Positions 7,707 to 14,300 of a stretch of DNA of 64,000 nt are shown piece by piece; within the stretch, counting starts at the first letter, position 1; every line of letters begins with the position of its first letter. The stretch comes from Acetobacter cerevisiae. GTDB taxonomy: Bacteria; Pseudomonadota; Alphaproteobacteria; Acetobacterales; Acetobacteraceae. The translations under genes and the position numbers were made by a program. A model generated the notes under the pieces. That model was not told where the DNA came from. It saw only the letters and a program-made list of their open reading frames with translations, and made no database searches. Location: assembly GCF_001580535.1 (NCBI RefSeq), contig NZ_LHZA01000157.1, positions 1 to 64,000 on the forward strand, written 5' to 3'.

Positions 7707-10961
<3,255 letters not shown>

Positions 10962-10967
10962 GATGCG

Positions 10968-12377
10968 TTAGTCCTTGCTGCCGTGCGCATCAATCAGCGC
11001 GACAAACCGTTCAAAAAGATAAAAGCTGTCAGACGGGCCGGGGCTGGCTTCCGGGTGATACTGCACGGAAAAAGCCGGGAAGCGGTCAGACGCCAGACCT
11101 TCGTTTGAGCCATCAAACAGGCTGACATGCGTGACGTGGGCGTCGCCCGGGAGGCTGTCCGCATCCACCGCAAAACCGTGGTTCTGGCTGGTGATTTCCA
11201 CGCGGCCTGTTCCCAGGTCCTTCACCGGCTGGTTCGCGCCGCGGTGGCCACGGGCCAGCTTGTAGGTCTTGCCCCCCAGAGCGCGGGCCAGAAGCTGATG
11301 CCCAAGACAGATGCCAAACAGCGGCAGGCCAGCATTCAGAACACCCTGAATGGCAGGCACGGCATACTCAGCAGTCGCAGCCGGGTCCCCGGGGCCGTTG
11401 GAGAGGAAGACGCCAGCGGGCTTGAGGGCCAGAATTTCTTCCGCCGTCGTGGTGGCGGGCACAACGGTTACGTCACAGCCCGCAGCGACCAGACAGCGCA
11501 GGATGTTGCGTTTCGCGCCGTAATCCACAGCTACAACCTTGCGGCGGTTTTCCGGGGCGGGGCGGGTGCCTTTCGGCCATTCCCACACGCTTTCGCTCCA
11601 GGTGTAAGGCGCTTTGCAGGTTACGGTCTTGGCCAGATCCATGCCTTCCAGCCCCGGCCATGCGCGGGTGGCATCCTGCAGGGCGGCCAGATCAAACTGC
11701 CCGTTTTCCGGGAAATACAGAGCCGCCGTCTGCGCGCCGTGGTCACGGATCTTCAGGGTGAGGGAGCGGGTATCAATCCCGGCAATGCCCGGAACGCCCT
11801 GTGCCTTCAGCCATGCGTCCAGACTTTCCGTGGCGCGCCAGTTGGCCGGTTCTGTCAGATCTTCCTTGGTGACGAGGCCAAGGGCCGCAATGCGGGAGGC
11901 TTCATCATCTTCCGGCGTGGTGCCCACGTTTCCGATATGCGGGAAGGTGAAGGTGATGATCTGGCCCGCGAAGGACGGATCCGTCAGTGTTTCCTGATAG
12001 CCGGTCATGCCGGTGGAAAAGCAGATTTCACCAAGGGCAGGTTTCTGCGTGAAGGCGCCAAAGCCTTTCCCCCACAGAATGGTTCCGTCTGCAAGAACAA
12101 GGGCGGCGGTTGCGCCGTCCGGGCGGGCGTCTGGCATGGGTATTCCTGTTGTGCTGCCTCCCGGTGCCGGGGAGGATTGGTCTGGGGATGTGGGGCTGGC
12201 GGGGTCCAGATCTGTCAGCGAAAGACCTGTGGCGCGTGCTATGACGGGCCAGTGGCGGGATGGAATGGCCTGAGCCTGCCGCCATTTGCGGATAGCTTCT
12301 GTGCCAACGCCGGTCAGGCGTGCTGTTGCGTCCGGCCCGCCAAGTCGGGCAATGATGGTATCGATTGAAATGGGCAT
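10968..12377 (-). CDS. carA: Carbamoyl-phosphate synthase small subunit with N-terminal YdaS/Cro-like HTH extension
   Basis: Glutaminase subunit that supplies ammonia to CarB. The catalytic part (from about residue 81) has the small-subunit N-terminal domain (ALVLADGTILWGKGFG) and a class I amidotransferase domain with the nucleophile cysteine in PLFGICLGHQLLA and the His-Glu pair in SVQYHPEASPGPSD. Unusually it is preceded by about 60 residues that read as a helix-turn-helix domain (IARLGGPDATARLTGVGTEA followed by IRKWRQAQAIPSRHW), and a Pro/Ser/Thr-rich linker. The ATG at 12377 is chosen because the longer frame begins with a GTG at 12446 inside an inverted repeat. The ATG at 12137 has AGGA six bases upstream and would give a standard 389-residue CarA, so two products are possible. 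Confidence 0.93.
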   Translation of the reverse strand: MPISIDTIIARLGGPDATARLTGVGTEAIRKWRQAQAIPSRHWPVIARATGLSLTDLDPASPTSPDQSSPAPGGSTTGIPMPDARPDGATAALVLADGTILWGKGFGAFTQKPALGEICFSTGMTGYQETLTDPSFAGQIITFTFPHIGNVGTTPEDDEASRIAALGLVTKEDLTEPANWRATESLDAWLKAQGVPGIAGIDTRSLTLKIRDHGAQTAALYFPENGQFDLAALQDATRAWPGLEGMDLAKTVTCKAPYTWSESVWEWPKGTRPAPENRRKVVAVDYGAKRNILRCLVAAGCDVTVVPATTTAEEILALKPAGVFLSNGPGDPAATAEYAVPAIQGVLNAGLPLFGICLGHQLLARALGGKTYKLARGHRGANQPVKDLGTGRVEITSQNHGFAVDADSLPGDAHVTHVSLFDGSNEGLASDRFPAFSVQYHPEASPGPSDSFYLFERFVALIDAHGSKD

Positions 12378-12428
12378 AAGGTAGACTGTGCCTCCCGTTC
12401 CGCATGGTTTAGCAGTCTGTGGAGTGGG

Positions 12429-12489
12429 TGGGAAGAAATTTCCCACCGGCTTGGGCGGGTTTTAATCCGGGGTGGGAAATTTCTTCCCA
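12429..12489. promoter_or_regulatory. Perfect 19-bp inverted repeat in the carA-yqeY divergent intergenic region
   Basis: The sequence TGGGAAGAAATTTCCCACC (12429-12447) recurs as its exact reverse complement at 12471-12489, separated by 23 bases. Each arm is itself nearly palindromic around GGGAA-AATTTCCC. The centres of the two 17-bp cores are 44 bp apart, close to four helical turns. The element is 52 bp upstream of the carA ATG (12377) and about 68 bp upstream of the yqeY ATG (12558). It could be a pair of operators, possibly for the HTH domain fused to CarA, or a long RNA hairpin in the carA leader. Confidence 0.7.
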
Positions 12490-12557
12490 TCTGATGATTT
12501 TATGCCACGCCTGTGCGGTGTGGCCTCTGATGTACATGATATGGAGTATGAGTGGTT

Positions 12558-13013
12558 ATGTCCCTGCGTGAACGCCTGATGGCTGATCTCAAGACGGCAA
12601 TGAAAGCCGGAGAAAGTGCGCGTGTGGGCACGATCCGCATGATTACGGCCAAACTCAAGGATGTTGAGATTGCGGGCCGCGCCAAGGGTGGCGAAGGGCT
12701 GAGCGAGGATGAAGGCCTGTCCGCCCTGCGCGGCATGGTCAAAACCCGCACCGAATCGGCCACCATGTATCGGGATGCCGGTCGCCCGGAACTGGCTGAG
12801 AAGGAAGAGGCGGAAATTGCCGTGATCCGTGGCTACCTGCCGCCGGAAATGGATGATGCCGCTCTGGAAGCTGCCGTGAAAGAAGCGCTTGCCGCGACGG
12901 GTGCCGAAACCATGAAGGATATGGGTAAGGTCATGGGCGCACTGAAAGCCAAGTTCGGCGCGGGCCTCGATATGGGTCGTGCGAATGCGGTGGTGAAAGC
13001 CAGCCTGAGCTAA
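12558..13013 (+). CDS. GatB/YqeY domain-containing protein
   Basis: A stand-alone YqeY-like protein of 151 residues, all helical, resembling the C-terminal tail domain of GatB (the amidotransferase that makes Gln-tRNA). It starts MSLRERLMADLKTAMKAGE, contains the family motif EIAVIRGYLPPEMDD, and ends in the small tRNA-binding-like helical domain (MKDMGKVMGALKAKFGAGLDMG). The exact function is unknown; a tRNA-related role is inferred from homology. The ATG at 12558 has GGAG upstream; the frame also opens two codons earlier at a GTG. In many alphaproteobacteria this gene directly precedes dnaG and rpoD; here a minus-strand gene pair lies between. Confidence 0.9.
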   Translation: MSLRERLMADLKTAMKAGESARVGTIRMITAKLKDVEIAGRAKGGEGLSEDEGLSALRGMVKTRTESATMYRDAGRPELAEKEEAEIAVIRGYLPPEMDDAALEAAVKEALAATGAETMKDMGKVMGALKAKFGAGLDMGRANAVVKASLS

Positions 13014-13071
13014 CGGCTTCTCTGTGTGGCGCCGCGGCTTCGGGTCGTGTCGCCACACAGAGCGAAAGCCG
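13014..13071 (+). terminator. Strong hairpin after yqeY
   Basis: Immediately after the yqeY stop, a perfect 12-bp stem (CTCTGTGTGGCG at 13020-13031 and its complement at 13051-13062) is extended by an outer CGGCTT/AAGCCG pairing (13014-13019 with about 13066-13071). No T-run follows, so the structure may act as a 3' RNA stabiliser or a non-canonical terminator. Confidence 0.5.
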
Positions 13072-13177: not shown

Positions 13178-13702
13178 TTATATCTGTCGATACATATAGG
13201 TCGTCGCGTGTCGCGCGCGTCCATCGGGATTCCAGGCATAGTCCGGGATGCGTCCCGCAATCTCGAAACCGAGCTTGGCATATAGCGGCTCGGCAACGTC
13301 CCCGCTTCGCGTATCCAATGTTACAAGAGTCTTGTCGAGCTCTCTGGCGCGGTCAAGTGCATGCGTCATGAGGAGATGCCCGACCCCTAATCGTCGAAAG
13401 TCGGGATGGACGATCATTTTGGCAATTTCGCATCGATGTGACTGGTTAGGGGGCATCGCAGTAATAAGCTGCACGGTGCCGACGACTTGCCCTTCACGCA
13501 CTCCTGCAAAAAGCACTCGTCGTCCAGCCACGACCTCTGGCAGAACGTCGTTTGACCAGTAACAAGCGGCCTCCTGTTGGGAGAATGGAGCCATGAAGCT
13601 TATAGCTGCTCCGCCGTTGACGCTCCTGGCGAGAATGCAGGACAATGCTTCGACATTGCTTTCTATGTCCTGTGTGCCGAGTTCGATGACATGCATTTTC
13701 AT
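13178..13702 (-). CDS. GNAT-family N-acetyltransferase
   Basis: A 174-residue GNAT acyltransferase. The acetyl-CoA pyrophosphate loop is recognisable in IVHPDFRRLGVGHLLM, preceded by beta strand 4 (VVGTVQLI) and followed by the late strand/helix LVTLDTRSGDVAEPLYAKLG. The substrate cannot be read from the sequence. The frame is open further upstream, but the ATG at 13702 (MKMHVIELG) is preferred: AAGGAA lies six bases before it and it sits 10 bp after the stop of the XRE/cupin regulator gene, so the two form an operon. This pairing of HTH-cupin regulator and GNAT is common as a movable accessory unit. Confidence 0.85.
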   Translation of the reverse strand: MKMHVIELGTQDIESNVEALSCILARSVNGGAAISFMAPFSQQEAACYWSNDVLPEVVAGRRVLFAGVREGQVVGTVQLITAMPPNQSHRCEIAKMIVHPDFRRLGVGHLLMTHALDRARELDKTLVTLDTRSGDVAEPLYAKLGFEIAGRIPDYAWNPDGRARHATTYMYRQI

Positions 13703-13712
13703 CAGAAATTCC

Positions 13713-14300
13713 TTAGGCCATGGCGATGATGTAGCGGGCAGGCAACTCAGAGGTCTCAAAGGACGACGCGCCGCGTAACTGATAGCGCAGGCAATCTCCC
13801 GAACGTAGATCGTAAGAGGCACCATCGACGGTGATGGTCAGGGATCCGGCCAGCATAAGCAGGTGATGTTCATGTCCCGGAAAGGCTGGTCTGTCATAAG
13901 CGATGTGCTGATAAGGCTCGATTGAACACTCGATGATCTCGAGTTTGAGTTGTCGGCTTGGTGGTGAAACAACGCGGCGAGAGAACTTCTTCTCCGGGTC
14001 TGACCAGACGTTCTGCTTGTCGCGTCGGGCTAAGGGAGGGAAGCTTGGTTCCAGCGGGGCAAGGAGTTGGGAAAGCGGCAGCGCAAATGCGGCTGCAAGA
14101 CGGCCGAGAGTTTCTGCCGTCGGACTGACATCAGCGTTCTCAATGCGAGACAGAGTGGCACGACTTACGCCACTCTTTTCAGCGAGCGCTTGTAAGCTTA
14201 GGCCGAGGTCAAGCCGCAGCGTTTTGAGGTGCTCGGCTAAGGTCGGGCAGGATTGATTATCTTTGTCCATATATGAGATATAATCCCTGATATGAGACAT
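13713..14300 (-). CDS. XRE-family transcriptional regulator with C-terminal cupin domain
   Basis: A 195-residue regulator with an N-terminal XRE/Cro helix-turn-helix (about residues 20-80; LSLQALAEKSGVSRATLSRIE is the HTH core) and a C-terminal cupin barrel (about 105-190; PGHEHHLLMLAGSLTITVDG), which usually binds a small ligand or metal. It probably controls itself and the GNAT gene that follows. The ATG at 14300 is the first start; a second ATG at 14270 (MDKDNQS) would place two direct repeats in the promoter region rather than in the coding sequence. Neither start has a clear Shine-Dalgarno sequence. Confidence 0.85.
   Translation of the reverse strand: MSHIRDYISYMDKDNQSCPTLAEHLKTLRLDLGLSLQALAEKSGVSRATLSRIENADVSPTAETLGRLAAAFALPLSQLLAPLEPSFPPLARRDKQNVWSDPEKKFSRRVVSPPSRQLKLEIIECSIEPYQHIAYDRPAFPGHEHHLLMLAGSLTITVDGASYDLRSGDCLRYQLRGASSFETSELPARYIIAMA
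14271..14297. promoter_or_regulatory. Direct repeats at the start of the XRE/cupin gene
   Basis: ATATGAGA occurs at 14271-14278 and again at 14290-14297, 19 bp apart (nearly two helical turns). They overlap the first possible start codon of the regulator. If translation begins at 14270 they would be well placed as an autoregulatory operator. This is an inference from position only. Confidence 0.35.

Follow-up and report, generated by a model that had tools for sequence, protein, structure and literature searches.

The region upstream of carA in this window (the whole stretch of 64,000 nucleotides analyzed here, from Acetobacter cerevisiae) contains a perfect 19-bp inverted repeat. The repeat is very likely an operator pair for the HTH domain fused to CarA. 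CarA or CarAB would bind both sites and repress its own carAB promoter. The reading is built on sequence comparisons across the family Acetobacteraceae. The features of the locus are as follows.

12429 to 12447, no strand: proximal operator (putative), the 17-bp dyad TGGGAAGAAATTTCCCA (12429-12445) followed by CC; overlaps the putative carA -35 element.
12471 to 12489, no strand: distal operator (putative), GG followed by the 17-bp dyad TGGGAAATTTCTTCCCA (12473-12489).
10968 to 12377, minus strand: carA, CPSase small subunit with an N-terminal HTH; 469 aa, ATG at 12377; TIGR01368 (E 1.6e-135), PF00988, and PF00117.
12204 to 12377, minus strand: HTH (carph-isopro) domain of CarA, residues 1-58; NF046037; recognition helix at residues 26-35 with Gln34.
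12132 to 12206, minus strand: linker between the HTH and the catalytic part, residues 58-82; predicted disordered, with pLDDT <50 at residues 57-82 of the full-length model.
7707 to 10961, minus strand: carB, CPSase large subunit, the next gene downstream of carA; ORF of 1084 aa, identified by reading the sequence.
12552 to 13013, plus strand: yqeY, the divergent neighbor, followed by dnaG and rpoD; PF09424; probably not the target of the sites.

The two arms of the repeat lie between carA and yqeY. They are 19 nt each and 100% complementary, with 23 nt between them. The site centers are at 12437 and 12481, which places them 44 bp apart. The initial annotation had described this geometry and had judged a chance origin very unlikely. 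Both points were borne out, with about 2e-5 perfect inverted repeats of at least 19 bp (loop of up to 60) expected by chance in 64 kb. With up to 3 mismatches allowed, the 19-mer occurs at these two places only in the window (0.01 expected). The 17-bp pattern TGGGAANNNNNTTCCCA occurs only in the two arms across the whole 3.09-Mb genome. Each arm is itself a 17-bp near-palindrome, TGGGAA-N5-TTCCCA, so the repeat is better read as two operator-like dyads than as one long hairpin. The asymmetric centers of the two dyads (GAAAT/ATTTC) face opposite ways. The two centers are not necessarily complementary in other species; for example, locus L345 has CGGGAAGAAAATTCCCA and TGGGAAGAAAATTCCCA.

It had also been proposed that the spacing suits two sites on the same face of the DNA. 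This is weak, since 44 bp makes 4.2 turns and spacings in the family are most often 38 to 40 bp. The spacing varies across the family, mostly within 32 to 50 bp. A strict helical phase between the sites was rejected, because spacings of 32 to 52 bp, mostly 38, 39, 40, and 44, do not correspond to integral turns. An imperfect 17-nt inverted repeat is also present at 13020-13062, just 3' of yqeY, and is perhaps a terminator.

The CarA of the window is 99% identical to that of A. malorum. It contains complete CPSase small-subunit and GATase domains, as a trigger enzyme should, and its activity is predicted. Residues 5-58 match the NCBIfam model NF046037 (carph-isopro) with 66.4 bits (curated cutoff, 38). 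The AlphaFold2 model of the HTH is helical with a pLDDT of 83, and helix 26-35 is in the recognition position. The best PDB matches of this model were 3bd1, 2hin, and 6on0 (rmsd 1.2-2.6, probability 1.00, E ~0.04). Profile matches to the Cro proteins of Xfaso 1 and N15 were distant (E 0.003-0.009). The predicted structure has the Cro/C1-type HTH fold of P22 Cro, Xfaso 1 Cro, and N15 Cro. The domain scores 20.9 bits against Pfam PF14549 (P22_Cro), below the gathering score of 30.2, and is therefore a distant relative and not a filed member of PF14549. On the other side of yqeY, before dnaG, the window encodes a GNAT acetyltransferase and an XRE-cupin regulator (13178-14300). Among 80 named relatives, this pair is found there only in A. 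persici (L337); L268 has the GNAT.

Within the genus Acetobacter, 35 loci encode HTH-CarA (that of the window and 34 others). All 35 contain TGGGAAGAAAWTTCCCA, at 46 to 78 nt before the carA ATG. A single A/T position is all that varies in the proximal site among them; the flanking sequence has otherwise diverged. The distal site is present, weaker and more variable, mostly 44 bp from the proximal site, and some Acetobacter have a degenerate copy. Away from carA, these Acetobacter genomes contain almost no exact copy of the motif. Two members of the genus with small genomes (G011 and G015) encode a CarA without the HTH extension, and the exact motif is nowhere in either genome. The region upstream of carA was read in G011 and has no site; in G015, carA is at a contig edge. 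Frameshifts within the HTH coding sequence were seen in A. persici JCM 25330 (L337, near 2501-2620) and in genome G009 (L056), each with both operators intact. They may be draft-sequence errors or a recent loss.

NF046037 matches were retrieved from 283 of 299 family genomes, covering 100 of 102 genera. The 157 unique HTH-carA loci of the family were selected by the domain, independently of the sites. A pair of GGAA-N5-TTCC dyads (30 to 52 bp apart, at least 14/16 core matches) is present upstream of carA in 154 of them, from many genera. Shuffled upstream sequences reached the same pair score in 0.03% of cases. Of the three exceptions, L144 and L164 have a single site each, and L080 has its pair farther upstream. 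The site pair was also found at 78 of 79 loci of a named set that overlaps partly in species (Acetobacter, Komagataeibacter, Gluconacetobacter, Novacetimonas, Asaia, Swaminathania, Rhodopila, Caldovatus, and others). Genome G089, from another genus, encodes a CarA without the HTH and has no site upstream. The members that lack the HTH have reduced genomes and have lost many regulators. The initial annotation had proposed a search for the core upstream of carA in relatives and had held that absence of the repeat from relatives with the fusion would count against the operators. The sites were present at 35/35 genus and 154/157 family loci, and the search thus went in favor of the operators.

Outside the family, the exact motif was found beside carA in none of 24 genomes searched. 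The carph-isopro loci examined there were not CarA. In other alphaproteobacterial families (L202-L228), the carph-isopro model matches the N terminus of long non-CarA proteins. One such protein was checked (L214:1444-2811); it has a Pfam Mitofilin match, and its gene comes after an apparent hemD.

Control of pyrimidine and arginine genes more widely had been suggested as well. This did not hold up, as the exact motif is present only at carA in the genome of the window. A relaxed motif search of 100 family genomes gave only ~1.3 matches per genome over the control, which is roughly the carA pair, so no wider regulon was seen. A regulon at other pyrimidine or arginine genes was rejected, with no clear excess of sites in those 100 genomes. 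Genome G132 contained 13 matches to YGGGAANNNNNTTCCCR and 0 for the control pattern, far above other genomes.

The half-sites vary with the recognition helix of CarA. At the 136 loci with Gln34, base 2 is G in 91% of half-sites. At the 13 loci with Ser34 or Ala34, it is G in 0-2%, and the sites are of the CCGGAA type. The change from TGGGAA to CCGGAA thus tracks the change of residue 34 from Gln to Ser/Ala. Residues 34, 36, and 25 have the three strongest associations with the half-site among 56 HTH columns, and all three lie within recognition helix 26-35 or next to it. None of 243 variable catalytic columns was above residue 34 or 36, and one was near (0.754 versus 0.774). The Ser/Ala types need at most 3 changes on the CarA tree, only one of which falls on well-supported branches, and monophyly of the Ser types was not rejected. 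A formal independent-contrast test of residue 34 and half-site lacked power, with only 1 to 3 independent pairs. Shared ancestry could inflate the association, because the independent changes number from 1 (well supported) to 3 (possible). We take the tracking as strong support, not proof, for the HTH of CarA.

A separate, unlinked transcription factor might instead bind the sites and regulate carA in Acetobacteraceae, with the HTH of CarA doing something else. We consider this unlikely. A motif search does not by itself identify the protein that binds, and the members without the HTH have lost many genes in genome reduction. Such a factor would need to have a near-exclusive single target over many genomes, and the joint absence of sites and HTH and the match between half-site and recognition helix argue against it. 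The neighboring XRE-cupin gene (13713-14300) was rejected as the regulator, as it is almost never conserved there (beside carA at 1 of 80 named loci). Four observations thus point to the HTH of CarA as the probable binder. Sites and fusion occur together and are missing together, carA keeps the sites where yqeY is elsewhere, named relatives almost never have the XRE-cupin gene next to carA, and a different recognition helix goes with a different half-site.

The divergent yqeY-dnaG-rpoD genes could be regulated by the sites instead of carA or along with it. The distal site is nearer to yqeY, and yqeY is present at 103 of 109 loci, mostly as the divergent neighbor. This reading is quite improbable. 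Sites are retained by carA at three Acetobacter loci that have no yqeY there (L290, L291, and L300). At L290 (A. sicerae), the place upstream of carA is taken by a gene for an ABC transporter substrate-binding protein. In the genomes of A. sicerae and its relatives, the exact motif is present once only, at carA, and the promoter elements fit carA. Co-regulation of yqeY alongside carA is possible.

We infer the -35 and -10 elements of the carA promoter from sequence. In the window they are as follows.

12429 to 12434, minus strand: putative carA -35 element (TTCCCA), within the proximal operator, 17 nt before the extended -10.
12406 to 12414, minus strand: putative extended carA -10 element (TGC-TAAACC), a conserved block in the genus alignment, TGCTARAA-like.

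Across the family, 97 loci have the proximal site near the start codon. In 90 of these, the 17-bp site is directly preceded by the TTG of the -35, and the TA of the -10 comes directly after the site in 60 and two bases on in 27. The 17-bp operator would therefore be the promoter spacer. Promoters of Gluconobacter oxydans have been mapped as TTGnnn / Tatnnn (PMC5756330), and the family carA layout agrees. The start codon is 4 to 8 nt past the predicted -10 in 94 of the 97 loci (exactly 6 nt in 59), which would put the transcription start at about the start codon. The carA mRNA thus appears to be leaderless across most of the family outside Acetobacter (L064-L092, L093-L172, and L231-L260). The Acetobacter layout differs, with the TTCCCA of the proximal site spaced 17 nt from the extended -10. 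It has a predicted leader of ~22 nt, with both sites outside it, and the proximal site is centered ~38 bp before the predicted start.

In both layouts, promoter elements would be hidden beneath a protein bound at the proximal site, which favors repression. Binding of CarA could also activate carAB, which we regard as improbable to about the same degree as yqeY being the target. In Acetobacter, the proximal site overlaps a -35 that matches the consensus poorly, and its center at about -38 is close to where a class II activator would sit. The site of most other genera, by contrast, takes up the -35/-10 spacer, where a bound protein is expected to block polymerase.

The second reading that had been offered, a 19-bp stem within the carA leader RNA, is very improbable, whether as an attenuator or as a protein-binding element. 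The carA-sense strand folds at -44.9 kcal/mol (z -4.8), but every perfect inverted repeat would fold well. Both sites lie before the predicted carA start, carA in most genera appears to have its start codon at that start and so would have no leader RNA to fold, and the window has no Rfam match. A cis-acting leader RNA was rejected accordingly, since pairing of the arms is at chance outside the genus; the complementarity of the N5 centers there is 0.498, versus 0.511 +/- 0.019 for randomly re-paired loci. Of the initial annotation, the two operators read by the HTH of CarA gained support at the genus and family loci, while the RNA stem, the shared DNA face, and the wider regulon were not supported.

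In the preferred reading of the repeat as an operator pair for CarA, the protein, alone or as CarAB, would bind the two near-palindromic sites. Bound CarA would cover or occlude the carAB promoter, giving direct autogenous repression. One HTH pair may sit on each dyad, and the two sites may be held together by the quaternary structure of the enzyme. We speculate that operators 38 to 44 bp apart could be bridged by a CPSase oligomer, so that metabolite state would set promoter activity. Binding of UMP, ornithine, or IMP to CarB might then modulate repression. In Escherichia coli, ornithine, MgATP, and potassium promote the CPSase tetramer, and with UMP the enzyme is essentially an alpha-beta heterodimer (PMC6245113). 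We tentatively suggest that CarAB is both sensor and repressor and that its UMP/ornithine-controlled state or oligomerization decides whether the HTH domains bridge the operators. If this is true, one protein couples allosteric feedback on activity to its own transcription without a separate regulator.

The carAB genes stand at the parting of arginine and pyrimidine synthesis. The whole family seems to control the carAB promoter by a phage-Cro-like domain fused to the enzyme, which would assign a function to the carph-isopro domain. It would also offer a simple one-protein, one-operator system for reading the allosteric state of an enzyme as gene control. The natural joint switch of half-site and one residue provides a direct test of CarA recognition. 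In the open-license literature, no mention of the carph-isopro domain was found, and nothing relevant was found on HTH-CarA or on carA regulation in Acetobacteraceae. As far as could be found, this would be the first CPSase with a fused DNA-binding domain and an operator of its own.

PutA, BirA, and NadR combine an enzyme and an autoregulatory DNA-binding domain in one chain and act on genes of their own pathways. They differ from HTH-CarA in that none is a carbamoyl-phosphate synthase, and their DNA-binding domains and targets are others.

The E. coli carAB regulators ArgR, PepA, PyrH, PurR, RutR, and IHF are all separate proteins (PMC6245113). PepA represses E. coli carAB directly, and the likeness of PepA and PyrH to HTH-CarA is that a metabolic enzyme directly controls carAB transcription (PMC6245113). 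PepA differs in being an unrelated aminopeptidase hexamer that wraps ~230 bp of DNA (PMC6245113); in Acetobacter, the regulated enzyme itself has the fused HTH and would use two 17-bp dyads. ArgR at E. coli carAB P2 is alike in that a single oligomer binds cooperatively to a pair of imperfect palindromes, the two 18-bp ARG boxes, close to the carA promoter (PMC6245113). It differs as a separate winged-HTH protein and the general repressor of arginine biosynthesis, whereas the Acetobacteraceae sites are tied to HTH-CarA and to carA alone.

The Cro proteins of phages Xfaso 1 and N15 (3bd1, 2hin, and 6on0) are the best sequence and structure matches of the CarA HTH. The 6on0 structure is N15 Cro bound to operator DNA. 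These proteins differ from HTH-CarA in being small, free-standing phage repressors with no enzyme fusion.
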